A stretch of DNA of 64,000 nt from Chitinophagales bacterium. GTDB taxonomy: Bacteria; Bacteroidota; Bacteroidia; Chitinophagales; CAIODY01. The position numbers and the translations under genes were made by a program. Of the stretch, positions 34,723-57,613 are shown in pieces. Each line of letters begins with the position of its first letter. Within the stretch, counting starts at the first letter, position 1. Below the pieces are notes generated by a model. It was given only the letters and a program-made list of their open reading frames with translations, did not search any database and had not been told where the DNA came from. The stretch covers positions 100,666-164,665 of the forward strand of contig CANFST010000001.1 in NCBI GenBank assembly GCA_947449695.1, read 5' to 3'.

Positions 34723-34797
34723 GGGAGCTTAGCTCAGTTGGTTTAGAGCATCTGCCTTACAAGCAGAGGGTCACTGGTTCGACTCCAGTAGCTCCCA
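34723..34797 (+). tRNA. tRNA-Val(UAC)
   Basis: gggagct/agctccc acceptor; anticodon arm tctgc-ctTACaa-gcaga; T-arm actggTTCGActccagt. Confidence 0.96.
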
Positions 34798-36376
34798 CCT
34801 TACAAGAATCCCTCTCAAATCGAGAGGGATTTTTTGTTTCTAATTGGCTGAAAACTCTTGATAGTCGTAAGTTTTCAGAAAGTATAGGATTTACTTTTTC
34901 AGTTCGATAATTGGATTTATCACAGTTGTAGTAAATTTTATCAGGAAACACTATTTTTTGCAGTGTTTGCCTTTCCCATAAATCCCCTGAAGCCCATATT
35001 TTACTGATATTCAGCGAATATTCCATCATTTTTTCTTTGCTCAAATTCGAGTTCGATAATTTATTTTTGAAAGGTTGAATTTCTTTTAAAACTTCATTCA
35101 GTTCATTTGTGAATTTCGTTTTGAATTTTTCATACAAATCCTTCTTGATTTCGCCCGTTACATAACGCTCTTCCATTTGTTCTATCTTTTCTAAAATCTG
35201 ATGTTTGCGTTTGATATGGTCAGTTGTTTTTTCTTGTTCCTGATTTTTGACTTTTGACAAAGCATCCGTCAATCTTTCTTCAATCAATTTCGCATACTTC
35301 GGTTTTATCTCAAATCGCTTTAACAACTGCTCAAATTCTTGATTTAATTTTTCTGCACTCTTGTTACTGCAACAACCTTTCGTATTGCATTTGTAATAGT
35401 AAATCCCTTTTGCCCTTACCAAATAACCTGTCATCACTTTTTCGCATTTATCACAATACACTAATCGCTTGAGCGGTATTTGTTCATCCTCTTTATGTGA
35501 ATCAAATTTGGTGTAGTGTGCTTGTAATATTTGATTGGCTTTGAGGAATGTTTCTTTCGATACAACAGGTTCCCAATTCACTCCATCAATTAATCTATCG
35601 CCTAACATTCTGTTGGATAGCAGCCCACAGTAAAAAACATTTCTGAAAGCAGCACTCAATTTTTTTTCTGTTACAGGTGTTCCCAATTTTGTCAATCGGT
35701 TGGCGATTTCAGCAATAGAAAGATTTTGTTCAGCTTTCCATTTAAATGCCTTACCAATTGCTTTCCCTATTTCATTAGGCTTGAAAAAAGGCTTGCCATC
35801 TACCAAAACTCTATCATAACCAGTTGATAATCGTCCGAAGAAAATCCCTTTTTCATATTTCTGTTTCATGCCTCTCGAACATTTTTCTTTTCGCATCTGA
35901 TTATCAAATTTTGAAAACATTAATTGCATGTCTTGTTGGAACGCGCCAATTGGAGTTAATGTATCAACTGGTGCTGAAGTAGCTTTAATTTGAATGCCTT
36001 TATTTCTTAATTGTTCTGCGATGAAAATCGCATTTGCTCCTGTTCTGCTGAATCTATCATTATCAGAAACGATAATGAATTTCACTGATTGTTTAGAGTT
36101 TTTCACAAACTCCATCATACGTTTAAATTCTTTCCGTTCTTCTGATTGGGCTGACTCATAACAGCCCCCGAATTCTTTTAAAATCGGAATGTTGTTTTGC
36201 TCTGCAAATCGCAGGCATAATTTCTTCTGCGTTTCAATACTTCCATTGTGTAGGAATTGTTCTTTAGTTGAAACTCTTGTATAAATTACCCCATATTTTA
36301 CTACTGTTTCATCGTTTGACAATTCGCTTTTGTGGGTAACAAATTGCTTGAATGCTTCATTGTTGAGTGCTGCCAT
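34757..36376 (-). CDS. Large serine recombinase (Resolvase + Recombinase + zinc ribbon)
   Basis: YGVIYTRVSTKEQFLHNGSIETQ; IIVSDNDRFSRTGANAIFIAEQLR; YCDKCEKVMTGYLVRAKGIYYYKCNTKGCC; C-terminal ..GATGVEPVTLCL is antisense tRNA-Val. Confidence 0.93.
   Translation of the reverse strand: MAALNNEAFKQFVTHKSELSNDETVVKYGVIYTRVSTKEQFLHNGSIETQKKLCLRFAEQNNIPILKEFGGCYESAQSEERKEFKRMMEFVKNSKQSVKFIIVSDNDRFSRTGANAIFIAEQLRNKGIQIKATSAPVDTLTPIGAFQQDMQLMFSKFDNQMRKEKCSRGMKQKYEKGIFFGRLSTGYDRVLVDGKPFFKPNEIGKAIGKAFKWKAEQNLSIAEIANRLTKLGTPVTEKKLSAAFRNVFYCGLLSNRMLGDRLIDGVNWEPVVSKETFLKANQILQAHYTKFDSHKEDEQIPLKRLVYCDKCEKVMTGYLVRAKGIYYYKCNTKGCCSNKSAEKLNQEFEQLLKRFEIKPKYAKLIEERLTDALSKVKNQEQEKTTDHIKRKHQILEKIEQMEERYVTGEIKKDLYEKFKTKFTNELNEVLKEIQPFKNKLSNSNLSKEKMMEYSLNISKIWASGDLWERQTLQKIVFPDKIYYNCDKSNYRTEKVNPILSENLRLSRVFSQLETKNPSRFERDSCKVGATGVEPVTLCL
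34807..34836 (+). terminator. Terminator after tRNA-Val
   Basis: aatccctctc-aaatc-gagagggatt + T-tract. Confidence 0.85.
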
Positions 36377-40277: not shown

Positions 40278-43200
40278 ATGCCAAAAATCTACGACAATAT
40301 TGAAAACCACCTTACCAAAGGTTTAAACGAAACGCTCGAAGTTTCTAATCGTACTGATTTTTGTGTGGGTTATTTTAATTTAAGAGGTTGGAAAGAAGTA
40401 GCCGAAAATATTGATTCTCTTTCTGGTGAAACAATTACTGAAAACGGAAAAGAATCTCATCGAATTTGCCGCCTTTTAGTTGGGATGCAAAAAATGCCAC
40501 TAGATGTCATTCGTGATTTTTATTCTAAAAATGAAGAAGATAATATTGACAATGCCGAAGCAATAAAACTAAAGAAAAAGTTAGCACAAGAATTTAAAGA
40601 GCAATTGACAATTGGTGTACCATCCGAAGCCGATGAAAAGGCTTTACGCAAATTAAGTCAGCAAATGAAAGACAACAAAGTTGTTGTCAAATTGCATTTG
40701 CGTTATACACTACATGCAAAATTATATTTAGCTTATAGTAAAGATAAACGTGTTCCTGTTGTTGGTTTTTTAGGTAGTAGTAATTTGACATTGGCAGGGC
40801 TTGCAAAACAAGGCGAATTAAACATTGATGTTTTAGAACAAGATGCTGCAAACAAATTAGCAACATGGTTTAATGACCGATGGAAAGACCGTTGGTGTAT
40901 TGATATTACCCAAGAACTGATTGAGATAATTGATAACAGTTGGGCAGCTGATAAATTAGTTGAGCCATACCATATTTATTTAAAAATGGCTTACCATTTA
41001 TCGCAAGAAGCAAGGGCAGGTATAAATGAATTTAAGTTGCCAAAAGTTTTTCAAACTGAATTATTAGAATTTCAACAAAAAGCAGTGTTAGTGGCTGCAC
41101 ATCATTTGCATAAACGTGATGGTGTTGTAATTGGCGATGTTGTTGGTTTAGGTAAAACCATTACAGCTACTGCATTGGCAAAAATGTTCAACGATGATTT
41201 CTTTTTAGAAACATTAATTATTGCTCCAAAAAATTTAACTGAAATGTGGGAAAGCTATGCTTTCAAATATCAGTTAGGAGCTTACAAAATTATTTCGCAA
41301 AGCCAAGTTCAAAAAATTTTGCCAACACTTCGCAGGTATCGTTTAGTAATAATTGATGAAAGCCACAACTTGCGAAATGATGAAGGCAGTAGATACAGAG
41401 CCATCAAAGAATATCTAACTGAAAATGAAAGCAAAGTCATTTTGCTTTCTGCTACACCCTACAACAAAACCTATTTAGATTTATCAAATCAATTGCGTTT
41501 GTTTATTCCCGAAGATAAGGATTTAGGCATTAGTCCCGAAAGGTATATTGAGAGCATTGGCGGACAAGTTCAATTTTCAGCTAATCATACTGAAACATTT
41601 ATTCGCAGCATAAAAGCATTTGAAAAAAGTCCCTTTGCTGATGATTGGAAAGAATTAATGCGATTGTATTTAGTGCGCCGAACAAGAAGTTTTATCAAAA
41701 ATAATTATGCTGAAACTGATGAAACCAACGGTAGGAAATTTCTAACTTTTGCCGATGGCACTAAATCATATTTCCCTGATAGAATACCAAAAAGAGTAGA
41801 ATACAAATTTAATCCTTCGGATAAAAAAGACATTTACGCCAACCTTTATTCGCCCAAAGTTGTTAGCACCATCAATGGTTTAGATTTACCTCGGTATGGT
41901 TTGCAAAAGTATTTAAATCAAACTCCAACAGAAAAAGCAACTAAAGAGGAAGAGGCTTTAATGGCTAATTTGAGCCATGCTGGCAAAAGATTAATGGGTT
42001 TTTGTCGTACCAATTTATTCAAACGATTAGAGAGTAGCGGCTATTCATTTTTACTTTCATTAAGCCGACACATTTTGCGTAATTATGTTTTTGTGTATGC
42101 GCTGCAAAATCATTTACCAATTCCAATTGGCAAAAATATCACTCACAATTTAGATGAGTTTTTAGAAGATAACGACACAGATAATGAAGATAGCCAATCG
42201 AAATTATTGAAGTTCATTTTAGAAGAAGAAACTTATTTACAAAAGGCTAAAGAGTTATACAATCAATATTCAAGTGAAAGTTATATAAACCAATTCGATT
42301 GGATTAGAACAGGGTTTTTTAATGCAAAATTGCAAAGCAGTTTAATAAAAGATAGTCGAGAAATTATTTCCATTCTCAACATTGGTAAAAACTGGAATGC
42401 TGCCGATGATAGGCAACTAAATGCTTTGTACGATTTACTAACCAAAACGCATAGCACCGAAAAAATTTTAGTGTTTACACAATTTGCAGATACTGCTTAT
42501 TATCTAACTGAACATTTAAAAAACAGAGGCATTCAGAAGATTGAATGTGTAACAGGCGATGATGAAAATCCAACTGCATTTGCTCATCGTTTTAGTCCTG
42601 TGAGTAACAACAAGCCCGAAATAATTAAATCAAATCACGATTTACGCATTTTAATTACTACGGATGTTTTGAGTGAAGGACAAAATTTGCAAGATGCACA
42701 CATCATTCTCAATTACGATTTGCCGTGGGCTATTATTCGTTTAATTCAACGTGCTGGCAGGGTTGACCGTATTGGGCAAAAGGCTGAAAAAATTATTTGC
42801 TATTCTTTTTTACCCGAAGATGGGTTGGAAAAAATTATAAAATTGCGCCACACTTTAACCAAGCGCATAGAAGAAAATGCAAACGTTGTGGGCAGCGATG
42901 AAACCTTTTTTGATGGCGACCCAATAAATATTGTTGATTTATACAACGAAAAATCGGGCATTTTAGATGGTGATGAAGATGACAATGAAGTTGATTTAGC
43001 TTCTTATGCTTATCAAATTTGGAAGAATGCAACCGATGCGAATCCTGAGTTGAGTAAATTAATCCCTAACATGCCCAATGTAGTGTATGCTACCAAACAA
43101 AATACTGAAACTGCTGAAAAACAAGGTGTAATTGTATACACAAAAACTAATCAGGAAAATGATGTTTTAGCATGGATAGATGACAAACAAAAAATAATTA

Positions 43201-43649
43201 CACAATCGCAATACACTATTTTAAAAGCAGCCCATTGCACACCTAGTACCGAGCCGAAATATAAAATTGAAAAGCATCACGATTTGGTTAAAAAGGCAAT
43301 TGAATTTATCAAGGAAGAAGAAATAAATACGGGTGGTTCATTGGGTAAAAAAACGGGCGTAAAGTATCGAACATTTATGCGCTTGGATAGATATATTCGA
43401 GAGTATGAAAATACCTTGTTTGTAAACGACCAATTGAAAAAAGCAGTAGATGATATTTACAAATATCCGCTTAAAGAATATGCACGAGAAACATTAGGCA
43501 GACAATTAAAATCAGGCATTGATGATGATTCATTAGCTGCTTTAGTGGTTTCACTTCGTGAAGAAGACAAACTATGTATCATTAACGATGATGAAAACCA
43601 TTTGAAAGATTTGCAAATTATTTGCTCATTAGGATTAACCAACAACTAA
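40278..43649 (+). CDS. PLD-like nuclease domain + SNF2/DEAD helicase
   Basis: LHAKLYL...GFLGSSNLTLAGL; GDVVGLGKTITA; LVIIDESHNLRN; ITTDVLSEGQNLQDA; QRAGRVDRIGQ. Confidence 0.92.
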   Translation: MPKIYDNIENHLTKGLNETLEVSNRTDFCVGYFNLRGWKEVAENIDSLSGETITENGKESHRICRLLVGMQKMPLDVIRDFYSKNEEDNIDNAEAIKLKKKLAQEFKEQLTIGVPSEADEKALRKLSQQMKDNKVVVKLHLRYTLHAKLYLAYSKDKRVPVVGFLGSSNLTLAGLAKQGELNIDVLEQDAANKLATWFNDRWKDRWCIDITQELIEIIDNSWAADKLVEPYHIYLKMAYHLSQEARAGINEFKLPKVFQTELLEFQQKAVLVAAHHLHKRDGVVIGDVVGLGKTITATALAKMFNDDFFLETLIIAPKNLTEMWESYAFKYQLGAYKIISQSQVQKILPTLRRYRLVIIDESHNLRNDEGSRYRAIKEYLTENESKVILLSATPYNKTYLDLSNQLRLFIPEDKDLGISPERYIESIGGQVQFSANHTETFIRSIKAFEKSPFADDWKELMRLYLVRRTRSFIKNNYAETDETNGRKFLTFADGTKSYFPDRIPKRVEYKFNPSDKKDIYANLYSPKVVSTINGLDLPRYGLQKYLNQTPTEKATKEEEALMANLSHAGKRLMGFCRTNLFKRLESSGYSFLLSLSRHILRNYVFVYALQNHLPIPIGKNITHNLDEFLEDNDTDNEDSQSKLLKFILEEETYLQKAKELYNQYSSESYINQFDWIRTGFFNAKLQSSLIKDSREIISILNIGKNWNAADDRQLNALYDLLTKTHSTEKILVFTQFADTAYYLTEHLKNRGIQKIECVTGDDENPTAFAHRFSPVSNNKPEIIKSNHDLRILITTDVLSEGQNLQDAHIILNYDLPWAIIRLIQRAGRVDRIGQKAEKIICYSFLPEDGLEKIIKLRHTLTKRIEENANVVGSDETFFDGDPINIVDLYNEKSGILDGDEDDNEVDLASYAYQIWKNATDANPELSKLIPNMPNVVYATKQNTETAEKQGVIVYTKTNQENDVLAWIDDKQKIITQSQYTILKAAHCTPSTEPKYKIEKHHDLVKKAIEFIKEEEINTGGSLGKKTGVKYRTFMRLDRYIREYENTLFVNDQLKKAVDDIYKYPLKEYARETLGRQLKSGIDDDSLAALVVSLREEDKLCIINDDENHLKDLQIICSLGLTNN

Positions 43650-43657
43650 AATTTACT

Positions 43658-46600
43658 ATGCTAAATATCGAAAGCACAAGAAACTATTTGCAGCAATTTG
43701 ATTTTAAAACTTTGTTCATCGAAGAGTTAGGATGGAACAATCCTGCCAATAAAAATAACTTCCCTTTTCAAACCAAAGATGGTCAATTTTATCGCAAAGC
43801 TATTGCGGAACTTTCAGGTGCTACAGTTTATGAAATAACAACTGATGATGGTTCAATTCCTGATAGAAAAATTCGTGAAACCATTTCAAAGGAAATCCAA
43901 AAAATCAATTTTGAACACATCCTTATTTTTGTTGACAAAGACCGTACACAAACCATTTGGCGATGGATTAAAAAACAGGATAAAAAGAATTTATCTCGTG
44001 AACATTATTTTTCAACTGGTCAAACAGGCGATTTATTTATTGCCAAACTATCCAGCTTATTGGTTGATTTAAGTGAAATTGAAAACGATATTACCATTAC
44101 AGATGTCGCAAAAAAAATTCAACATGCACTCGATTTAGAAACCGTTACCAAAGCCTTTTTCAAAGAATATCAAAACCAGTTTGTGGTATTTTTAGATTTA
44201 ATTCAAGGCATTGATAACGATGCAGACCGTCGCTGGTATGCTTCTGTTATTTTAGATAGATTGATGTTCATTTACTTTTTGCAAGAAAAAGGATTTATTG
44301 ACAATGGCGATAGAGATTATCTGTACAACAAACTAAAACAAACCAAAAAAACTCTTGGTGTAAATCATTACTACAAAACATTTTTACACAAATTATTTTT
44401 TGAAGGATTTGCAAAACCCGAAGAAGAAAGAAGTAAAGAAACAAATGCACTTTTAGGTAAAGTAGTTTATTTGAATGGCGGTTTGTTTTTACCTCACAAA
44501 ATCGAAAAAAAATATCCCAATATTTCAATTCCTGATATTGCTTTTGAAAACCTTTTAAAATCTGACGAACCGAAAGGGTTGTTTGAACAATTTAGTTGGA
44601 GCTTAGATGATACTCCAGGCGGAAAGGATGATGAAATCAACCCTGATGTATTGGGCTATATTTTTGAAAAATACATCAACCAAAAGGCTTTTGGGGCTTA
44701 TTATACCCGAACTGAAATCACAGAATATTTGTGTGAGCAAACCATTTACAAACTCATTTTAGATGCTGTAAATCAACCCGAAATTGATGATGAGTTATTG
44801 GCAAAAGCTAAAATTCCCAAAGCAAAGCATTACGATTCTGTCGAAGAGCTTTTAATAAAATTAGATGCGGCTACTTGCAAAAAATTAATTTATGGCGATA
44901 ATGCAGTGTTGCCCAATTTAAGCCTGCTCGACCCTGCTTGTGGTAGTGGTGCATTTTTGGTGGCTGCCATGAAAACGCTGATAAATGTATATGCTGCCAT
45001 ATTGGGCAAGATTGAATTTTTGGGCGATAAAAATTTGATTCAGTGGAAAAAGGGAATTGAAAAAGACCATCCAAGCATCAATTATTTCATCAAAAAACAA
45101 ATCATCACCAACAATTTATATGGTGTTGATATAATGGAAGAAGCTACTGAAATAGCCAAGTTGCGGCTGTTTTTGGCTTTGGTAAGCAGCGCACATACGG
45201 TGGAGCAATTAGAACCATTGCCTAATATTGATTTCAATATTATGAGTGGCAATTCATTGATTGGTATGATGAGGGTTGATGCCAATCAATTCAACAGGTT
45301 GGTAAATACTTCGGGCAAAAAGCCCAAAGGGAAAGTGTTGCAAAAAGAAAATATTTTTGACAAAGAAGTGATAGTAGGCAACCTATTTGCCGAAGAAAAT
45401 GCAAAAGGCTATCAACAATTAATAAATGAAAAAGAAGCCGCCATTAGTGCTTATAAAAATGCGAAAGGATTGGGTAGTGCAGGCTTACAAGATTTAAGAG
45501 ATAGCATACAAAAACAAGAAAATGAAGCCAACAAAATTTTGAACGAATTATTGTTAGAAGAATTTAACAACCTTAAAATAAAATATGAGCAAGTTACATG
45601 GGATGATGAAAAACAAAAAGAAGGCAAACCAAATAAGCGACCGCTTGAATTAGCTGATATAGAATCACTTGAACCGTTTCATTGGGGCTATGAATTTTCG
45701 GATATTTTTAGAAAGAAAAATGGTTTTGATGCTATTATTACTAATCCACCGTGGGAAGTTTTTCAAACAAATGAAAAAGAATTTTTTCAGCAGTTTGATA
45801 AAAAAATTACAAAGAAGAAATTGAGGATTGAGGATTGGGAACAAAATAGAAACGAATTAATGGCAGATGAAGAAATCAAAAATGCTTGGCTGCAATATTC
45901 AAGTAAATATCCTCATCAATGGGCTTATTTAAAAAATTCACCGCAGTATAAAAATCAAATTTCGGTTGTTAACGGTAAAGCAATTGGAAACAAACCAAAT
46001 TTGTATTGTTTATTTACCGAACAATCTCGAAACCTTTTAAAAAACGGTGGTTATTGTGGTATTGTTATTCCAAGCGGCATATACACTGATTTAGGAACAA
46101 AAAAACTTCGTGAAATGTTATTTGATGAAAATAAAATCACTGGTCTTTTTTGTTTTGAAAACAGAAAAGAAATTTTTGAAAATGTGCATCGTAGCTTTAA
46201 GTTTGTTGTCCTAAGTTTTGAGAAGGGAAGCAATTCTTCAAAATTTCCCTCATCATTTATGCGGCTCGATGTAGAAGAACTTCAGAATTTTCCTCAATAT
46301 GGTTCGATAAATATTTCCGTTGATTTAATAAAAAAATTGAGTCCAGATAGTTTTTCAATTATTGAATTTAAAACAGAACAAGAAGTTAAAATTGCTGAAT
46401 CAATAGCTCAATTCCCATTGTTGTCTGGCTTTAGCAAAGGTTGGGATTTAGAATTATATGGTGAAGAAATGAACATGACCCGTTCAGCAGATAGTTTTTT
46501 AACACATCCTACAAAATTTGTTTTGTATGAAGGAGGCATGATTTGGCATTTTACAAACACATTTGACCAACCTCGATACTTTATCAATGAAGCATCCATA

Positions 46601-47776
46601 AAGGAAGATTTTTTAAGCAAACGAGTAAAACGAATTGGAGTAGCGGATACACAAGTTAAACGCCGTCCTAAAGATTTAAAAAATGATTATGAAGCTTACC
46701 GTTTAGCTATCCGTAAGATTGCATCAAATACAAATGAGCGAACACTAATTACAACTGTTATTCCACCTAATTCAATTGCTGGTAATTCCCTTACTGTAAA
46801 TTTCCCATTCAAGCATGATTATGAAAAATACAATGAGCTTAACTACAGCGGAAATGATTTGATTTTACTTTCATCAATTCTAAATAGTTATGTGGCAGAT
46901 TATATTTTGCGTTCAAGGGTAACCACAAACCTTAACCTCTTTTTTCTTTATCAACTTCCAGTTCCTCGATTAAAGTCAACAGATAAATGGTATAAACCTA
47001 TTGTAGAACGGGCATCAAAATTAATTTGCACCTCTGCTGAATTTGCTGCCTTGTGGGAAGAGGTAATGAAAACGAAATGGAATGAAAAATTAGCAGCCAC
47101 CGAAGAAACAGAACGCAATAAATTAAGAGCTGAATTGGATGGCATCATTGCTCATATTTATGGCTTAAATCAAGATGAATTGGAATACATACTTTCAACA
47201 TTTCCAATTGTGGCTGCATCGCAAAAACAAATGGTATTGGAAGAATATAAAAAAATTGCTCCACAATTTTCAAATACAAAAACAGAAGATTGGGATGCTG
47301 CTTTGCAAAATGGCGAAAGCCCTACAGTTGAATACAAATCAACACTTCGGGTTGATTTAAAAACCAACAACCCTGAAAAGCATATTGAAAACAGTGTGGT
47401 AAAAACTTTAGCTGCATTTCTAAATTCACAAGGTGGCACATTGTTAATTGGTGTGGCTGATGATAAAACCATATTGGGTTTAGATACTGATTTTAATTCG
47501 TTTTCAAAAGCTGATAAATTAGATGAGTTTCAAAAACACTTTGATAATTTGATTCAAAAATCAATGGGTAACCACATACATCATTATTTAAAATTGGAGT
47601 TTCCAACCATTGCTGATAAAACAATTTGCAGCATCACCATTAAAGAAAAAAGTGCCGAGCCAGTTTATGTGCTGGATGAAAACAATCAAGAAAAGTTTTT
47701 CATTCGCCGCCAAGCATCCACCGTTGATTTAAAAACCAGCGAAACAACTAAATACGTAAAAGAGCATTGGAAATGA
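43658..47776 (+). CDS. Eco57I-type N6-adenine DNA methyltransferase with C-terminal AlbA_2 (Schlafen-like) domain
   Basis: LLDPACGSGAFLVAAM; ITNPPWEVFQ; C-terminal PTVEYKSTLRVDLKTNNPEKHIENSVVKTLAAFLNSQGGTLLIGVADDKTILGLD. Confidence 0.92.
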   Translation: MLNIESTRNYLQQFDFKTLFIEELGWNNPANKNNFPFQTKDGQFYRKAIAELSGATVYEITTDDGSIPDRKIRETISKEIQKINFEHILIFVDKDRTQTIWRWIKKQDKKNLSREHYFSTGQTGDLFIAKLSSLLVDLSEIENDITITDVAKKIQHALDLETVTKAFFKEYQNQFVVFLDLIQGIDNDADRRWYASVILDRLMFIYFLQEKGFIDNGDRDYLYNKLKQTKKTLGVNHYYKTFLHKLFFEGFAKPEEERSKETNALLGKVVYLNGGLFLPHKIEKKYPNISIPDIAFENLLKSDEPKGLFEQFSWSLDDTPGGKDDEINPDVLGYIFEKYINQKAFGAYYTRTEITEYLCEQTIYKLILDAVNQPEIDDELLAKAKIPKAKHYDSVEELLIKLDAATCKKLIYGDNAVLPNLSLLDPACGSGAFLVAAMKTLINVYAAILGKIEFLGDKNLIQWKKGIEKDHPSINYFIKKQIITNNLYGVDIMEEATEIAKLRLFLALVSSAHTVEQLEPLPNIDFNIMSGNSLIGMMRVDANQFNRLVNTSGKKPKGKVLQKENIFDKEVIVGNLFAEENAKGYQQLINEKEAAISAYKNAKGLGSAGLQDLRDSIQKQENEANKILNELLLEEFNNLKIKYEQVTWDDEKQKEGKPNKRPLELADIESLEPFHWGYEFSDIFRKKNGFDAIITNPPWEVFQTNEKEFFQQFDKKITKKKLRIEDWEQNRNELMADEEIKNAWLQYSSKYPHQWAYLKNSPQYKNQISVVNGKAIGNKPNLYCLFTEQSRNLLKNGGYCGIVIPSGIYTDLGTKKLREMLFDENKITGLFCFENRKEIFENVHRSFKFVVLSFEKGSNSSKFPSSFMRLDVEELQNFPQYGSINISVDLIKKLSPDSFSIIEFKTEQEVKIAESIAQFPLLSGFSKGWDLELYGEEMNMTRSADSFLTHPTKFVLYEGGMIWHFTNTFDQPRYFINEASIKEDFLSKRVKRIGVADTQVKRRPKDLKNDYEAYRLAIRKIASNTNERTLITTVIPPNSIAGNSLTVNFPFKHDYEKYNELNYSGNDLILLSSILNSYVADYILRSRVTTNLNLFFLYQLPVPRLKSTDKWYKPIVERASKLICTSAEFAALWEEVMKTKWNEKLAATEETERNKLRAELDGIIAHIYGLNQDELEYILSTFPIVAASQKQMVLEEYKKIAPQFSNTKTEDWDAALQNGESPTVEYKSTLRVDLKTNNPEKHIENSVVKTLAAFLNSQGGTLLIGVADDKTILGLDTDFNSFSKADKLDEFQKHFDNLIQKSMGNHIHHYLKLEFPTIADKTICSITIKEKSAEPVYVLDENNQEKFFIRRQASTVDLKTSETTKYVKEHWK

Positions 47777-47800
47777 AATTTAAAAACTGAAAAGTATTTT

Positions 47801-49489
47801 ATGAGTCTTCAATTAAATAAATACCAAAGCATCTTAAATGGTCTTAAAGATAAAATTCGCCATGCTCGATTAAAAGCTGCTGTTACTGCCAATACCCAGC
47901 TATTAGCTATTTATTGGGAAATAGGAACAGCCATTATTGAGCAACAAAAAGAAGAAGGTTGGGGAGCTAAAACAATAGAAAGATTATCAGTTGATTTGCG
48001 AACTGAATTTAGCGACATGAAAGGTTTGTCGGCTCGAAACCTGCGCTACATGAGAGAGTTTGCCAAATCGTATCCTCATTTTTCAATTTTGCAACCAGTG
48101 GCTGCAAAATTGCCAAACACAAAAAAATTAACACAATCAATTATGCAACCAGCGGTTGCACAATTACCCAAAGCAAAAAAATCGAAAATAGAAGTTGATA
48201 TTTTGCAGCCGCTGATTATAAAAATTCCTTGGACACACCACACCATTATTTTAGATAGAATTAAAAACAAAGAAGAACGATTTTTTTATTTGCAACAAAC
48301 GGTTGGAAATGGTTGGAGCAAAAGTGTTTTGTCGTTACAAATCGACAACAAACTTTATCAACGTCAAGGTAAATCCATCAACAATTTTGAAAACACATTA
48401 CCAGCCATTGATTCGGATTTAGCAAAAGAAACTTTTAAAAATCCATACTTGTTTGATTTTTTGGCAATGGGTGAAAAAATGCAGGAACGAGATTTTGAAA
48501 AGGCATTATTGCAACATCTGAAAGCCTTTATGTTGGAGCTAGGTAAAGGTTTTGCTTATGTAGGCAATCAAAAAAACATAGTTGTAAATGGCGATGATTT
48601 TTTCTTAGACCTGCTATTTTATAATTACAATTTACACTGCTTTGTGGTTTTTGAATTAAAAATTGGCGACTTTAAACCAGAGTATGCAGGCAAGCTGAAT
48701 TTTTATGTAAATACCATTAATGCACAGTTGAAAAGTGAAATCGATAAGCCAACCATTGGCGTATTGCTTTGTAAAACACCTAATGAAACAGTCATAAAAT
48801 ATTCACTTCAAAATATTGATGCCCCAATTGGTGTGTCGGATTATAAATTAGCCAACGCATTGCCTCAACAATTAAAAGCAGAAATGCCAACCATTGAAGA
48901 ATTGGAAAAGGAAATCGAGGAAGAATACAATGAACTGAAAAGCCCATCGCAAAAGCGATTTGATGCATTGAAAGAAAAATTAGGGCAATTAAAAAATGAA
49001 GAAATAAAGCAGACCGCCACTACACCAATTTTGTTTGAAATAATTGATAAAAGCCTTGTGCCTTTATTTAGTGCATTAATCAATCGGCTAAATACTTTGA
49101 GCGAATATTTTGTGTCAACCGATTACTATTGGCAGGGCAAAGACCATAAAAATGTGGATGAAAAACAATGGTTAGAGAATTGGAAAAATGAAGATTTTTT
49201 AAGAAAGACCTTTGAGCTTGAATTTACTTATCGTATGCATGGATTTAAAAAAGCAGGTACTGAAGCATTTGGTTTATTCATAGGACTTAAAATAAGAATC
49301 GATACTTATTGGTATGGTTTTTCAGTTGTGAACTATAACAACCAAGAACCAATTTTAAAGAAATTGTATCACGAACAACTTACACAACAAGATATTCAAG
49401 CCCTTGTAGAAACTGTTTTTGATTTTGCCTTAGCAGATATTGAAAAACGGATAGAGTGGATTAATGAAGACAAAAACAGAAAAAAATAA
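47801..49489 (+). CDS. DUF1016 (YhcG-like PDDEXK nuclease) protein with C-terminal DUF4268-like domain
   Basis: LLAIYWEIGTAIIEQQKEEGWGAKTIERLSVDLRTEFSDMKGLSARNLRYMREF; FFLDLLFYNYNLHCFVVFELKIGDFKPEYAGKLNFYV; YYWQGKDHKNVDEKQWLENW. Confidence 0.88.
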   Translation: MSLQLNKYQSILNGLKDKIRHARLKAAVTANTQLLAIYWEIGTAIIEQQKEEGWGAKTIERLSVDLRTEFSDMKGLSARNLRYMREFAKSYPHFSILQPVAAKLPNTKKLTQSIMQPAVAQLPKAKKSKIEVDILQPLIIKIPWTHHTIILDRIKNKEERFFYLQQTVGNGWSKSVLSLQIDNKLYQRQGKSINNFENTLPAIDSDLAKETFKNPYLFDFLAMGEKMQERDFEKALLQHLKAFMLELGKGFAYVGNQKNIVVNGDDFFLDLLFYNYNLHCFVVFELKIGDFKPEYAGKLNFYVNTINAQLKSEIDKPTIGVLLCKTPNETVIKYSLQNIDAPIGVSDYKLANALPQQLKAEMPTIEELEKEIEEEYNELKSPSQKRFDALKEKLGQLKNEEIKQTATTPILFEIIDKSLVPLFSALINRLNTLSEYFVSTDYYWQGKDHKNVDEKQWLENWKNEDFLRKTFELEFTYRMHGFKKAGTEAFGLFIGLKIRIDTYWYGFSVVNYNNQEPILKKLYHEQLTQQDIQALVETVFDFALADIEKRIEWINEDKNRKK

Positions 49490-49560: not shown

Positions 49561-51525
49561 ATGAGCTTTAAATTATTGGCAATAAGACCGCTGGAAGGTT
49601 GTAATGAAAGGTTTCTTAAAAACTTACAAGCTGGAGAAATCTATAAATTCTATAGTGATTATGAATTTCTTAACCAGAGAAATGAACAAGTGAGTTTATC
49701 TGAAGAAGTTGCTAAAATAATTTTCAAATCAACCATCCCTGAAGATTTATACTACATTAATAAGAACAAGGAAACTTATATTGCAGTTAGTATTTCTGCA
49801 ATTGTAGGAAAAAACGGCTCTGGAAAAAGTAGTATTTCAGAACTTTTTTTGTACGCCTTGTTTGTTATTTCAAACAGATTGGGATTTATAGATAAGAGCA
49901 AATTTTTAGAATTAGAATCCACAAAACAAGAAGATTTAATTGAATCGAAAGAATACGAAAAAGACGTTATTGACATTACTTCAGGATTAAAAATTGAATT
50001 ATATTATTTATTAGAAAATAATTTTTTTAAACTTTGTATTAGTGGGGGTAAAATATATTTAAGTGAATACTCTCCAAATCTAAACAACCAATCTTTTTCT
50101 ACCCCAACACCTGTAACATACAGAGAGGCTTTAGGGCATTTCTTTTATTCCATGATAGTAAATTACTCATTTTATGGGTTCAATACAAACCAAATTGGAA
50201 ATTGGATAAAAGCGTTTTTTCATAAAAATGATGGCTATCAAATGCCAGTTGTAATTAATCCATTCCGAGAAAAAGGAAATCTTGATGTGAATATTGAAAA
50301 TCAACTTACAAGGGCTAGATTACTTGCAAACATTCTTAGTATTTCCAATTACAAAAATATTAATCGTAAATCTGCAATAGATTCTATTGAGCTTTTTTTT
50401 GACAACAGAAAAGATTACAAATTCTTAGGAAACAATGAACTTAGATTTACTCATTCATTTGTACAAAAATTTAGAGAGCTTATAATAATTCCGCTTTACA
50501 AATTAACATTCAATGAAAGTATCAATTATCCTGAAATAAATACAGAAATAAAAAAATATGCTGAACTTTATTTGATTCATAAATTAATCACTATCCCTTC
50601 TCGATACAAGCTATTTGAAGACTTTAATAAAAGAAAAAGGAAAAAAGATGACAGTCAGGATAATTATAATCTAACAAATAAAATTGCCAATGATTATGTC
50701 GAAGCTTTACACAAGGATAAGAGTCACATAACTTTAAAGGTTAGGCAAACCCTTAATTTTCTCCGACAAAATCTTTATAATATTCCAGAAGGCATAGATT
50801 TTAAAAATGGAATCGAAATTAAATCCGCTGTAAGAAATATTAATAAAGCAAAAAGTGAAAAATGGTTTACAGAAACAATTGATTATTTACCACCACCATT
50901 TTTAACAAGTAGAATTAAGTTTAAAGATGGAAGTTATTTCGACCAGTTAAGTTCAGGTGAAAAACAGAAAATATATTCACTAAACTCTGTGATTTATCAC
51001 ATGAAGAACCTTGAATCAGTTCATAAAAACAAGCTCATTAATAAAGAGAAACTAATAATCGAATACGATACAGTAAATTTAATTTTTGATGAAATAGAGT
51101 TGTACTATCACCCAGAGTTTCAAAAAAACACTATCACTGATTTACTTTCATTATTAAGAAAAGCAAACTTTAAATATATAGAAAATATAAATATTGTGTT
51201 TCTTACTCATTCTCCATTTATACTATCAGATATTCCTATTCAAAATATTATGTTGTTGAATTTTGATTCAAAAACTGGAAAGTCAATACAAGTTAAAAGT
51301 AGAAAACAAACTTTTGGAGCTAATATTCATGATTTACTTGCGGATAATTTTTTCTTGCATGATACATTCATTGGAGACTTTGCAGATAAAAAAATTATGG
51401 GACTTATAAAAAACATAAAAAGTAAAACAACAACTAAAAGTGACAGGAAACTACTAAAATTAATTGGAGATACATTTTTGAAAACAGGAATAGAACTATA
51501 TAGTAAATCTAATGATAAAGATTGA
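49561..51525 (+). CDS. AAA/ABC-type ATPase, PtuA-like (restriction-system-associated AAA ATPase type)
   Basis: AIVGKNGSGKSSISELF; LSSGEKQKIYSLNSVIYHM; LIFDEIELYYHPEFQ; VFLTHSPFILSDIP. Confidence 0.85.
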   Translation: MSFKLLAIRPLEGCNERFLKNLQAGEIYKFYSDYEFLNQRNEQVSLSEEVAKIIFKSTIPEDLYYINKNKETYIAVSISAIVGKNGSGKSSISELFLYALFVISNRLGFIDKSKFLELESTKQEDLIESKEYEKDVIDITSGLKIELYYLLENNFFKLCISGGKIYLSEYSPNLNNQSFSTPTPVTYREALGHFFYSMIVNYSFYGFNTNQIGNWIKAFFHKNDGYQMPVVINPFREKGNLDVNIENQLTRARLLANILSISNYKNINRKSAIDSIELFFDNRKDYKFLGNNELRFTHSFVQKFRELIIIPLYKLTFNESINYPEINTEIKKYAELYLIHKLITIPSRYKLFEDFNKRKRKKDDSQDNYNLTNKIANDYVEALHKDKSHITLKVRQTLNFLRQNLYNIPEGIDFKNGIEIKSAVRNINKAKSEKWFTETIDYLPPPFLTSRIKFKDGSYFDQLSSGEKQKIYSLNSVIYHMKNLESVHKNKLINKEKLIIEYDTVNLIFDEIELYYHPEFQKNTITDLLSLLRKANFKYIENINIVFLTHSPFILSDIPIQNIMLLNFDSKTGKSIQVKSRKQTFGANIHDLLADNFFLHDTFIGDFADKKIMGLIKNIKSKTTTKSDRKLLKLIGDTFLKTGIELYSKSNDKD

Positions 51526-52717
51526 AATAAATAACCTTCAACAAAAAAAGCAAGAATACTTGGTTGCTACACTTTCAAGAGTTGCAACTAGAGTTTCTAT
51601 TTTAGAAAAATCGCTTTCTCATTTGCATGGTGATGATATTAATTTTACTGAGAATAATTTAACTAGTTTAAAAGCTATTACAAGAGAAATAGCCTCTTTA
51701 GTTGGTGATAAACTTAACATTCCTAATGGGCAAAATGGTTACTCAAGTGCCATAGAAGCTTACCTAGTAAGTGCAAACCATTTAGGCAATATTAATCTCA
51801 ATGGTCTTCTTGATTTTTGTCGGGACTTGCTGGCAAATACAAATAAGCTGCTCTCAGAATTATTAATTTGTGATGCAAGCGAATTAATGAATCTAAATCA
51901 AACATTACTTCAAAAACATGCATTAAACACAATTAATAATATCGCTGTAATTAAATTGGCATTTGATTACACATACGAAACTATAGCCTCAGAAGTGAAA
52001 AATTTCTTTAGAATCAACCAATTTGTATCAGCCTGTCCATATTGCAACAAAGTAGAGGCGAGACATTATACCAATGGTGCTGGTGAAGTTGTTGAATCAT
52101 TTCAATTGGATCATTTTTATGATAAAGCAACATATCCACTTTTGGCTTATTGTTTTTTCAATTTAGTACCAAGTGACCAAACATGTAACACCTTGAATAA
52201 ACACGATACTGAATTTAATGACGAATACCATATAAATCCTCACCATAAAGGTTATTTAGACAGATTTAAGTTTGAACCTACTGGCTGGAATACTGCATAC
52301 AAAGTCAACCAAATAAAGGTCAAAATAACAGTGCCGCAAAATTCTGCCTCTTATAAACAAATTAAAGGAGATAATCCGCCTCATGATGAAAATGGGGAAT
52401 TAGGGAATTTGAATGTTTTTAAAATACTTTCTAAATATCAGGCGGAAACACATAAAGCTGGAAAAATGCTTGAGGAACTAAATAATAGAAATAAATATTT
52501 AAAGCATTTGAAGAAGTTTTTAAAAAATCTTAACGAAATGGACAGAAAAAATAGTTATTTAAAATGGTATGAGAGGAATTTCAATGTTCGATTTAAAAAT
52601 TCTGACTTTAATGAAAAGAAATACTCAAAATTTTGCAGAGATTTACATGACTATTATTTTAGTGAAAATTCAAATCTACTCAATAAGTATATACAAGATT
52701 TAATTAAAAAATACTAG
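51512..52717 (+). CDS. HNH endonuclease, PtuB-like
   Basis: CPYCNKVEARHY...FQLDHFYDKATYPLLAYCFFNLVPSDQTCNTLNK; 14-bp overlap with upstream ATPase. Confidence 0.83.
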   Translation: MIKIEINNLQQKKQEYLVATLSRVATRVSILEKSLSHLHGDDINFTENNLTSLKAITREIASLVGDKLNIPNGQNGYSSAIEAYLVSANHLGNINLNGLLDFCRDLLANTNKLLSELLICDASELMNLNQTLLQKHALNTINNIAVIKLAFDYTYETIASEVKNFFRINQFVSACPYCNKVEARHYTNGAGEVVESFQLDHFYDKATYPLLAYCFFNLVPSDQTCNTLNKHDTEFNDEYHINPHHKGYLDRFKFEPTGWNTAYKVNQIKVKITVPQNSASYKQIKGDNPPHDENGELGNLNVFKILSKYQAETHKAGKMLEELNNRNKYLKHLKKFLKNLNEMDRKNSYLKWYERNFNVRFKNSDFNEKKYSKFCRDLHDYYFSENSNLLNKYIQDLIKKY

Positions 52718-53995: not shown

Positions 53996-54514
53996 TTAAT
54001 CTAAAATACCAAGTTTAGAAAGTCTAATACACATAGCAGTTGAACTCACATCAAATTTTTTTGAAAGAATTTGAATAGCTTCTTCACTTCCTAAATCAAA
54101 TTCAAGTTTAGCTGCTTCTTGTTTTACTAATGCTTCAGGCATCAATATAGCAGCGGCAAAAGCATTTGCTTCTTGTTCCAATCGTTGATTATGAGGGGTA
54201 TTTCCTGAAGTTTGGCTTCTGAACATTTTAAAATTCTTATCAACAAATAACTTGCCTTCTTCACGATGCAATTCATAGTGCCCAAGTTCATGAGCAATTG
54301 TAAATCTTCTGCGAACCTTAGATTCAGTATGATTTACACCAATAACCGCTTTGCCATTTTCAATGGCAAGCAACCCAGAAACATCATCACCTAATGGATA
54401 AGGTTTGATAAGTATGCCTCTTGATTTTGCAATTGATTCAATATTGATAGGCAACTGCAATTCAGGAATACTATTTAAAATAGATTCCACAGCCTGTTGT
54501 ACGTGTTTGTTCAT
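53996..54514 (-). CDS. ImmA/IrrE-type metallopeptidase
   Basis: RRRFTIAHELGHYELHREEG (HEXXH); QEANAFAAAILMP. Confidence 0.93.
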   Translation of the reverse strand: MNKHVQQAVESILNSIPELQLPINIESIAKSRGILIKPYPLGDDVSGLLAIENGKAVIGVNHTESKVRRRFTIAHELGHYELHREEGKLFVDKNFKMFRSQTSGNTPHNQRLEQEANAFAAAILMPEALVKQEAAKLEFDLGSEEAIQILSKKFDVSSTAMCIRLSKLGILD

Positions 54515-54528
54515 TAACTGATGTTCAA

Positions 54529-54864
54529 TTAAATAGTTGAAAGAAAATTACGAAGAACAGTTTTAGTAGTTTTACTATTAAGGCTTGTATCGGAAATAAT
54601 GCTATTTATATTCAACTGCTGTACTTTTTTTTCTGGAGTTACTTTAGGTATTAGCTCAGTGTATTGAATATTCAGCAAATTAGCTATCATAATAAGTTGG
54701 TGAATTGAAGGGCGGTGTCTGCCTTTTTCCAAATTAATGATTGATGCTCTTGTAAGACTTAGGTAATCGGCTAGCACTTCTTGGCTAAACCCATTCTTTA
54801 CTCTTTCTTCTTTAATTAGTGTACCAATCATTCCATAGAAATTCTCTTGGTTTGTAATATTCAT
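54529..54864 (-). CDS. XRE-family HTH repressor
   Basis: IGTLIKEERVKNGFSQEVLADYLSLTRASIINLEKGRHRPSIHQLIMIANLLNI; Met at 54864 fits better than the extended start. Confidence 0.9.
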   Translation of the reverse strand: MNITNQENFYGMIGTLIKEERVKNGFSQEVLADYLSLTRASIINLEKGRHRPSIHQLIMIANLLNIQYTELIPKVTPEKKVQQLNINSIISDTSLNSKTTKTVLRNFLSTI

Positions 54865-55014
54865 AAGTGAAAGATTTTTTTTGACAGCGCAAAGGTAATC
54901 AATATTTTCATAAAAACAATAGCATGTTTTATAAAACTTTACATCTTTATTTTTGAACAAATACTTTACTATTTCAATTTTTATAATTACCTTTATCCCC
55001 ATAAAAAACAAAAA

Positions 55015-55036
55015 CCAAGCAGTGGAAACTACTTGG
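55015..55036. repeat. Hairpin with A/T-rich flanking arms (possible bidirectional terminator)
   Basis: ccaagcagt-ggaa-actacttgg, one mismatch, with flanking aaaacaaa / tttgtttt. Confidence 0.6.
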
Positions 55037-55137
55037 CTTTGTTTTAGAATGAGTAGATAAGGGTTAGCCCCCCGTCTATATTCTCTTTTAATTTGGTAAA
55101 TCAAAAGTAGGTACTTCATTCTAAAACGACAAGCCTA

Positions 55138-55316: not shown

Positions 55317-56279
55317 ATGCATTTTAAATTTACGCTTAATAAAAAATCCCATGAATGGGATAAAAAAACAATCACTGGCTTCGAATTACGTGAAATCGGA
55401 ACCATTGATAAACATTCATCTCTATTCTACTCAGTAGAAGGACGTGATGAATTAGTTACGGACGAAAGAGAAATACTTTTAGCTCATGATGGAGTTGAAG
55501 TTTTCTATTCGGTGAAGAACCCTGAATTCAAATTTACCATTAATGGAAAAGAGTTTGAGTCGGAGAAAAAATGTATCTCGGAAACAGAAATTCGTAAGCT
55601 GGGTCACATTGATTCTTGCCAAGCTATTTTCCTGAAAACCCATCATGGGGATGAGTTAATTAAAATTCATCAAGAGGTTGATATTGCACCTTTTGGTACT
55701 GAACATTTCCTATCAAAAGCAATTGTTAAAGTAAAAGATAAGGGCAAGGAAGTAATTATTTACTTGTCAGCTGGCGAACACTCTGTAACTGAAATTAAAA
55801 AGTTAGCCAATGTTAGTGATGATTATGTTTTATCTCAAGTTGTTGATGGTCAATTTATCAAATTGGAAAATCATGCTCTTGTTCACATCAAAGGTTGTGA
55901 ACAGTTTGTGAGCAGTGTTCCATCTGGAGGCTCATCATCAATTATTCCTCATGAACAATTGGAAGATTTGAAACAATTGGGATTAACAGTAAGCGTAGCC
56001 TCTGAGGGAGGTTATGCTTATGTGTTAGTTGAAAAGCTGAAAATGCCTGATGGCTGTAATCCTAATGAAGTAGATGCTCTTATCTGCAACAGCATGAGGG
56101 ACAACTATCATAGTTCTCTTTTTCTTTCTTCGCATATTCAAGGTTGTCCACCATTGAATTGGAATCGTCAAAATGTTAGAATTTTGGATAGGAATTGGTT
56201 TGCTATTTCTTGGCAAACACAGCCTAATTTAAGTCTGACGGATATTTTAGTTAACCATTTAAAACCATTTCAAAAATGA
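55317..56279 (+). CDS. Multi-ubiquitin-like protein (three Ubl-like repeats) fused to a Prok-E2_E-like E2 domain
   Basis: Three repeated units: FKFTLNKKSHEWDKKTITGFELREIG.. / FKFTINGKEFESEKKCISETEIRKLG.. / VKDKGKEVIIYLSAGEHSVTEIKKLA..; then SGGSSS linker and VLVEKLKMPDGCNPNEVDALICNSM...NWFAISWQ. Confidence 0.78.
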   Translation: MHFKFTLNKKSHEWDKKTITGFELREIGTIDKHSSLFYSVEGRDELVTDEREILLAHDGVEVFYSVKNPEFKFTINGKEFESEKKCISETEIRKLGHIDSCQAIFLKTHHGDELIKIHQEVDIAPFGTEHFLSKAIVKVKDKGKEVIIYLSAGEHSVTEIKKLANVSDDYVLSQVVDGQFIKLENHALVHIKGCEQFVSSVPSGGSSSIIPHEQLEDLKQLGLTVSVASEGGYAYVLVEKLKMPDGCNPNEVDALICNSMRDNYHSSLFLSSHIQGCPPLNWNRQNVRILDRNWFAISWQTQPNLSLTDILVNHLKPFQK

Positions 56280-57613
56280 AAACTAAAAGGTCAAAACTTA
56301 AATTGAAGATTCCAAAGGCAATCTATGATGAAGTTTTAGCAGACCTTAAAAGACCTCACCCGTTCGCTTATGAACGGGTGGGTTTTTTAAGTACCGCTAT
56401 ATCCGTTTCGGAATTGAAAGAACCCATTGTGCTTGTTACTGAATATCAAACCATTCCAAATGAAAATTACATTAATGACAAGAAAGTTGGTGCAAGAATA
56501 AATTCGGAAGCGATTGTTTCAGCTCAACAAAGAATTTACAATTCAGGTAATGGATGCTTACACGTTCACCTACATAATCATTCAGGGAAAACTCATGCAA
56601 GTGGGACTGATGCTGCTGAGCTACCAAAAGTTGTAGAAAGTTTTTGCAATGTTGATTCTAACGTAGCAAACGGCATCTTAATTCTTAGCAATGATTCAGC
56701 ATTTGCAGCTATTAAACTAAATGGAATAGAATATTTAATTGAACCTGAAATTATTTCCATTATTGGCTATCCGATGAAATTTATTTTTGACAATAATTCA
56801 TCTTCGATAACCAATGAGATGTTTAAGAGGCAATCTTTTTTGGGTAACCAATCTCAATTGTTGTTTGAGAAAATAAAAGTTGGTATTGTAGGTTATGGCG
56901 GCGGCGGCTCTCATATTGGTCAACAGTTAGCACATGTTGGATTTAAAAACATTTTCGTTTTTGATAACGACAAAGTTGAGCTCTCTAATCTTAATAGGTT
57001 GATAGGTGCTAAATATTCCGATGTTAAAAATGGAACGCAAAAAGTGAATGTTGCTAAAAGGATTATTAAATCAATTTTCCCAGCTTCAAAGCCAATCGGA
57101 GTAAACGATATTTGGCAGAACAGAACTGATTTACTTAATCAATGTGATATTGTAATAGGGTGTGTCGATTCTTATGCTGCTCGAAGAGATTTGGAAGCAC
57201 AATGTCGTCGACACATGATTCCATACATCGATATTGGGATGGATGTTCATAAAAAGACTGATTCTTCAAATTTAATTTCTGGGCAAATTATTCTTTCAAT
57301 GCCAAACATGCCATGTCTTCATTGTCTCGGCTTTTTAACCTCAGAACGCATTGGTGAGGAAGCTGCTAAATATGGTAATGTTGGGGGATTTCCTCAAGTC
57401 GTTTGGTCAAATGGTGTTTTAGCCTCAACAACTGTAGGAATTGTAGTTGATTTGTTATGCAATTGGACTAAAATTGAAGACAGAATTGTTTATCTTGAAT
57501 ATAATGGAAATAGTGGAACAATTACCGAATCAGATTTAGTAGAATTTTGCAAAAAGAATTGTACGCACTACCCAATTAAAGAAGCTGGTAAACCAATTTT
57601 CAAATTGGCTTGA
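56276..57613 (+). CDS. JAB/JAMM deubiquitinase-like domain fused to ThiF/E1-like adenylating domain
   Basis: YERVGFLS; HLHNHSGKTHASGTD (HxH-x8-SxxD); VGIVGYGGGGSHIGQQLAHVGFKNIFVFDNDKVELSNLNRL; CLHC and CKKNC zinc-type cysteines. Confidence 0.88.
   Translation: MKTKRSKLKLKIPKAIYDEVLADLKRPHPFAYERVGFLSTAISVSELKEPIVLVTEYQTIPNENYINDKKVGARINSEAIVSAQQRIYNSGNGCLHVHLHNHSGKTHASGTDAAELPKVVESFCNVDSNVANGILILSNDSAFAAIKLNGIEYLIEPEIISIIGYPMKFIFDNNSSSITNEMFKRQSFLGNQSQLLFEKIKVGIVGYGGGGSHIGQQLAHVGFKNIFVFDNDKVELSNLNRLIGAKYSDVKNGTQKVNVAKRIIKSIFPASKPIGVNDIWQNRTDLLNQCDIVIGCVDSYAARRDLEAQCRRHMIPYIDIGMDVHKKTDSSNLISGQIILSMPNMPCLHCLGFLTSERIGEEAAKYGNVGGFPQVVWSNGVLASTTVGIVVDLLCNWTKIEDRIVYLEYNGNSGTITESDLVEFCKKNCTHYPIKEAGKPIFKLA

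Follow-up and report, generated by a model that had tools for sequence, protein, structure and literature searches.

The 64,000-nt stretch of a Chitinophagales bacterium contig that we analyzed (CANFST010000001.1, hereafter the window) contains a two-gene ubiquitin-like (Ubl) operon, in which a (Ubl)3-E2 fusion is followed by a JAB-E1 fusion (Table 1). Rather than a new kind of system, it represents a branch of the known Bub/Iyer-6e class and falls in a divergent part of that class, a clade spanning many phyla. We consider it probable that it is a mobile, stress-inducible protein-modification operon of Bub type that works by the four steps outlined below. More tentatively, and with somewhat less than even confidence, we propose that this widespread branch activates and conjugates a modifier whose mature end is Ser-Ser rather than Gly, by way of a cysteine-less E1/E2 pair and a JAB whose altered active-site spacing is adapted to that end.

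Table 1. Features of the Ubl operon and its divergent regulatory genes (window coordinates)
Feature	Position	Strand	Basis
CapP-like ImmA/IrrE metallopeptidase	53996..54514	-	PADLOC capP E=5.2e-39, Pfam Peptidase_M78
CapH-like HTH repressor	54529..55119	-	PADLOC capH E=2.1e-8, Pfam HTH_3
Gene 1 (Ubl-E2 fusion)	55317-56279	+	320 aa ORF
Ubl part, aa 1-207: beta-grasp domains ~1-67, 68-134, 135-200, and tail F197-x6-G204-G205-S206-S207	55317..55937	+	Pfam Multi_ubiq, AlphaFold2, Foldseek
Conserved Ubl tail G-x-S-S, predicted cleavage point after Ser207	55926..55937	+	Equals free C-terminus of unfused relatives
E2-fold domain, aa 208-320, BubB-like, without conserved catalytic Cys	55938..56279	+	AlphaFold2, PDB fold match, profile comparison
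Gene 2 (JAB-E1 fusion)	56276-57613	+	445 aa ORF
JAB/JAMM metalloprotease domain, E33, H98-x-H100-x8-S109-x2-D112	56276..56788	+	Motif and relatives' alignment
E1/ThiF adenylation domain, C347-x2-C350 and C429-x-H431, no conserved Cys between	56828..57613	+	Pfam ThiF, 80-sequence alignment, PDB match to Citrobacter BubCD

A preliminary description of this DNA, made from the sequence alone, had placed the Ubl, E2-fold, JAB, and E1 set in two polypeptides, encoded by ORFs with an ATGA-type overlap and located among defense genes. All of this holds: both ORFs lie at the coordinates given there, and the operon is part of an accessory island with other defense-like genes. The three repeats described for gene 1 are partly visible by sequence. 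Its product matches Pfam Multi_ubiq (E=2.7e-17). Units 1 and 2 are identical at 25 of 63 positions, a similarity reached by none of 2000 shuffles; unit 3 is weak by this measure, with shuffles scoring as well in 39/2000 cases against unit 2 and 299/2000 against unit 1. The AlphaFold2 model of the Ubl part (mean pLDDT 92.8) nevertheless has three beta-grasp units, followed by a disordered tail, and its first Foldseek matches are multi-ubiquitin proteins of E. coli, Citrobacter, and Methylobacterium. The window thus encodes the multi-domain beta-grasp Ubl (BubA) that characterizes Bub. The Ubl and E2 parts were modeled separately, as the mixed Ubl and E2 alignment for a full-length model was misaligned, and sequences from plasmid records were left out of the structure-model alignments.

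The C-terminal part of the gene 1 product was modeled with 43 sequences (pLDDT 93.7) and adopts an E2 fold. Among 350,542 PDB chains, the sole significant fold match is 9eae_C (E 1.2e-4, TM 0.72, 14% identity), which is BubB in the Citrobacter BubCD(D104A)-BubB complex; the window therefore has a BubB-type E2 fold. The beta-grasp repeats and the E2 fold, which the preliminary description had named as points that structure prediction might overturn, both survived. Its more specific label, a Prok-E2_E-like domain, fares less well, since the Pfam match is marginal (E=0.034, below cutoff). A profile search of this domain against PDB sequences gave nothing significant. Comparison with Citrobacter-type E2 domains, using a trimmed Prok-E2_E-type profile, scored 30.2 against a maximum of 20.3 in 60 column-shuffled controls; earlier profile comparisons were not convincing. 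W282, W294, and S298 are present in 79/79 sequences and H314 in 77/79, and no cysteine is conserved among these 79 (best column 49/79), so we rejected a classical Cys-based E2.

Gene 2 carries a complete JAMM motif, with the HxH-x8-SxxD pattern first read from the sequence. Each of E33, H98, H100, S109, and D112 is kept in 78 or more of 79 relatives, and the x8 spacing occurs in 80/81 window-clade sequences, whereas most Citrobacter-type JABs have x7. The proposed ThiF/E1 fold is supported by Pfam (ThiF, E=2.4e-33), and the best PDB matches are to Citrobacter BubCD (E 7.6e-18), which identifies it as a JAB plus E1 of BubCD type. From the C-terminal CxxC and CxxxC pairs suggested initially, C347-x2-C350 was retained; the second set is C429-x-H431, as the first Cys of the supposed CxxxC is not conserved. 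C347, C350, C429, and H431 are invariant (80/80) and probably form a metal site, while C290 (76/80) lies within the Rossmann-fold stretch. Between C350 and C429, where the thioester Cys would be expected, the 80-sequence alignment contains no conserved Cys. With no conserved catalytic Cys in either E1 or E2, it would be unsafe to assume a thioester relay of the classical kind. To our knowledge, the published Bub E1 and E2 also do without catalytic cysteines. Bil (BilABCD) has the same set of Ubl, E2, JAB, and E1, but BilB contains a CEHH motif whose Cys138 is catalytic, BilD combines Cys417 with two adenylation domains (PMC11354881), and neither arrangement is found in the window. Membership in Bil was rejected, as there is no conserved Cys in the E2 or in the E1 crossover region.

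The two-gene layout had been put forward as a possibly undescribed minimal architecture, but earlier descriptions exist, an outcome that the preliminary description itself had named as refuting this claim. Row 6e of Table 1 in Iyer et al. 2006 lists a polyUbl, an inactive E2/RWD domain, and a JAB-E1 fusion, and in some species the polyUbl is fused to the E2-like domain (PMC1779556). The window has the same components, including an E2/RWD-like domain without catalytic Cys. It differs in that the metal-binding protein Y, searched for with the DUF6527 profile that we took to represent it, is absent from the window and 80 relatives. Among the closest known systems is the Bub operon of Citrobacter, with BubA, BubB, and BubCD (Ye et al. 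2026; Gong et al. 2025; both cited in PMC13373217) and solved structures (PDB 9d59, 9ea4, 9ea5, 9ea8, 9eae, 9eav). On a plasmid of Citrobacter braakii, the operon L058 encodes a (Ubl)3-E2 fusion of 362 aa, whose residues 1-229 and 230-362 match PDB BubA and BubB, and a JAB-E1 of 456 aa that matches BubCD. Mesorhizobium, Rhizobium, and Roseomonas plasmids likewise carry Ubl-E2 and JAB-E1 genes with a divergent HTH and ImmA/IrrE pair, and Multi_ubiq occurs in 22/396 Bacteroidota genomes, several with the same fusion. Altogether, these cases show that the architecture is known, and the window find in itself adds one member.

Citrobacter Bub and the window share the order of a (Ubl)3-E2 fusion and then a JAB-E1 fusion, with DNA-damage-type regulator genes alongside. 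However, the window E1 belongs to a separate clade and has the conserved CxxC and CxH. The two also differ in the residue at position +10 of the Ubl tail (Gly in Citrobacter, Ser in the window), in JAB spacing (x7 and x8), in DUF6527 (present and absent), and in regulators (CapK/CapS and CapH/CapP-like). DUF6527 was found in 0/90 tested loci, with 4/4 positive controls detected. Because it accompanies the Citrobacter and several other Bub operons but is missing from some two-gene relatives, it is probably not defining for Bub.

In the E1 tree, the window clade is separated from the Citrobacter type and from a third type with support of 99/97. A genome scan with the E1 alignment found 144 relatives, 80 loci of which were kept, many of them in MAGs; a scan of genome contigs with the JAB-E1 alone found no relatives, and neither did a search of viral contigs with the window Ubl-E2. 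Hosts include Bacteroidota, Planctomycetota, Acidobacteriota, Verrucomicrobiota, Melainabacteria, Pseudomonadota, Desulfovibrio, and others. The nearest kin on plasmids (tblastn) are from Spirosoma and alphaproteobacteria. Within the clade, plasmid operons of alphaproteobacteria (L050-L056; Methylocystis, Rhizobium, Bosea, Bradyrhizobium, Sphingobium) and operons of Bacteroidota (L062-L074, L100) resemble the window in E1 (44-59% identity), Ubl tail, gene order, and, often, a divergent regulator pair. They differ in gene fusion: the Bacteroidota have a fused JAB-E1 with separate Ubl and E2 genes, and the alphaproteobacteria have four-gene operons of Ubl, E2, JAB, and E1. Among members of this clade, the Ubl-E2 fusion occurs in the window only. 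Some of these loci have further neighbors. L050 and L053 have genes for an ATP-binding protein and an S8 family (subtilisin-type) peptidase downstream of the Ubl operon, and L054 and L055 are without CapH/CapP nearby and adjoin a RES-Xre type toxin-antitoxin pair. On the Spirosoma linguale plasmid pSLIN02 (L049 and L057), a Tn3-family transposase borders the JAB-E1 gene, which is 5'-truncated, and the Ubl and E2 genes are in another part of the plasmid; a transposon appears to have disrupted this operon.

Divergent from the Ubl operon, an HTH gene and an ImmA/IrrE peptidase gene adjoin each other, which is the CapH+CapP arrangement known beside immune-type operons; the CapH-like gene probably starts downstream of its listed ATG. 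A divergent ImmA/IrrE gene lies upstream in 48 of the 69 loci with enough upstream sequence, and only one locus has a downstream match. In published Bub operons, CapW or CapH+CapP flank 219 of 544, and CapP is activated by ssDNA and cleaves CapH (PMC13373217). The CapH/CapP-like pair likely regulates the window operon. The operon is absent from the two same-genus and three same-family genomes searched, and the island is probably mobile. Genes upstream of the operon encode a serine recombinase, a helicase, a type IIG-like enzyme, and a Septu-like pair. The minus-strand gene for the serine recombinase (34757-36376) extends into the 3' part of a tRNA-Val (34723-34799), probably as the module through which the island integrated. 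The window contains no further repeat of the tRNA-Val 3' end, so any island end is putative. The region 40278-49489 resembles a defense cluster, with an HKD+Snf2-type helicase, a type IIG-like restriction-methylation enzyme, and a PDC-S02 (DUF1016-type) nuclease in one run, and 49561-52717 encodes a PtuA/PtuB-like pair (PADLOC PDC-M62A and PDC-M62B).

What was initially read as a Ser/Gly linker between the Ubl and E2 parts is instead a conserved Ubl C-terminal tail, V-P-S-G-G-S-S, whose pattern is identical to the free C-termini of unfused relatives. We numbered tail positions relative to the Phe or Leu in the final Ubl strand and counted unique tails. Position +10 is Ser in 66 and Ala in 4 of the 70 window-clade tails, and a stop follows directly in 67/70, with three tails extending by 1-3 residues. 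Among the standard-length tails, +7 is Gly in 66/67 and +10 is Ser or Ala in 67/67. The window tail reads F-VSSVPSGGSS, then SIIP, with Ser at +10, and is thus intact inside the fusion. Citrobacter-type Ubls have Gly at +10 in 18/18, followed by a stop, a short tail, or a fused E2, and this C-terminal Gly is not found in the window clade. Our reading of these patterns is that the mature Ubl of the window would end in Ser, with the JAB separating Ubl from E2. A third multi-Ubl type (L002, L003, L005, L006, L013, L023, L024) is Ser-ended too (TDKS, TNKS, ETRS), eight residues past the anchor Phe, and adjoins a different E1 protein and often DUF6527. The solved E. coli multi-Ubl (PDB 9cd2) has Ser at its construct end, like this third type, so specialists may already have noticed the Ser terminus.

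In the four-step proposal, the CapH-like repressor would silence the operon until the CapP-like peptidase, activated on DNA damage as in the analogous systems, cleaves it. Gene 1 would then yield a (Ubl)3-E2 precursor, which the gene 2 JAB would cut at the conserved tail, most likely after Ser207 as judged from conservation and spacing, releasing the E2 from a modifier with -Gly-x-Ser-Ser at its C-terminus. Next, the E1 domain would adenylate the Ubl C-terminus and pass it to targets with the BubB-like E2, by a chemistry that we infer to run on enzymes with no conserved catalytic cysteines. Finally, the JAB may also remove the modifier. Since unfused relatives have no need to separate Ubl from E2, the JAB may mainly deconjugate, and the E2 could act without cleavage from the Ubl. 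Further points against the proposal are the absence of DUF6527 and the low identity of the E2 to BubB.

Processing could take place at another residue. The near-invariant Gly at +7 leaves room for a Gly-ended Ubl: the JAB could cut after Gly204, with x-S-S leaving with the E2, and the rest of the pathway would be the same. The usual cleavage site of JAMM proteases in Ubl systems is after Gly, and short conserved pro-tails exist, for example on UFM1. Against a cut at Gly204, the number of residues past the last strand is constant, nearly all tails stopping directly after +10, and the Citrobacter-type Gly sits at exactly +10, where PDB BubA constructs end. We regard a Gly204 cut as a serious but doubtful option. 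It is unlikely that the Ubl-E2 protein stays unprocessed, as a scaffold or filament in which the E2 would have no catalytic role and would bind Ubl in cis as an RWD-like domain. Such a role would fit the missing conserved Cys, the designation of the domain as inactive in Iyer 2006 (PMC1779556), and the filaments formed by Citrobacter and Methylobacterium multi-Ubl proteins (PDB titles), but clade relatives encode Ubl and E2 in separate genes and the Ubl tail is intact in the fusion.

The fusion itself might be an assembly or sequence error in an operon that really has separate Ubl and E2 genes, given that it is unique within the clade and comes from a draft genome of 99 contigs. Compared with L062, its nearest relative, however, the window lacks the stop codon and 12 bases of intergenic DNA and has another codon in place of the E2 start, with the reading frame preserved throughout. 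A single-base sequencing error is rejected on these grounds, and we consider an error of any kind very improbable. As to function, phage defense had been taken as established background for Bil/Bub-type operons, but it is not demonstrated for Bub operons, whose authors consider that they might serve in stress responses more generally (PMC13373217). The window operon could accordingly be a modification system for regulation or metabolism that does not act on phages, a possibility that we hold at well under even; against it, the neighboring genes resemble defense genes and the distribution is mobile and patchy, and an anti-phage role is putative.

In this branch, the terminal residue of the modifier is fixed as Ser/Ala across many phyla, while Gly is fixed at the same position in the sister branch. 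This makes the need of a Ubl for a C-terminal Gly directly testable. The branch would also allow tests of how an E1 and E2 without catalytic cysteines carry a Ubl.
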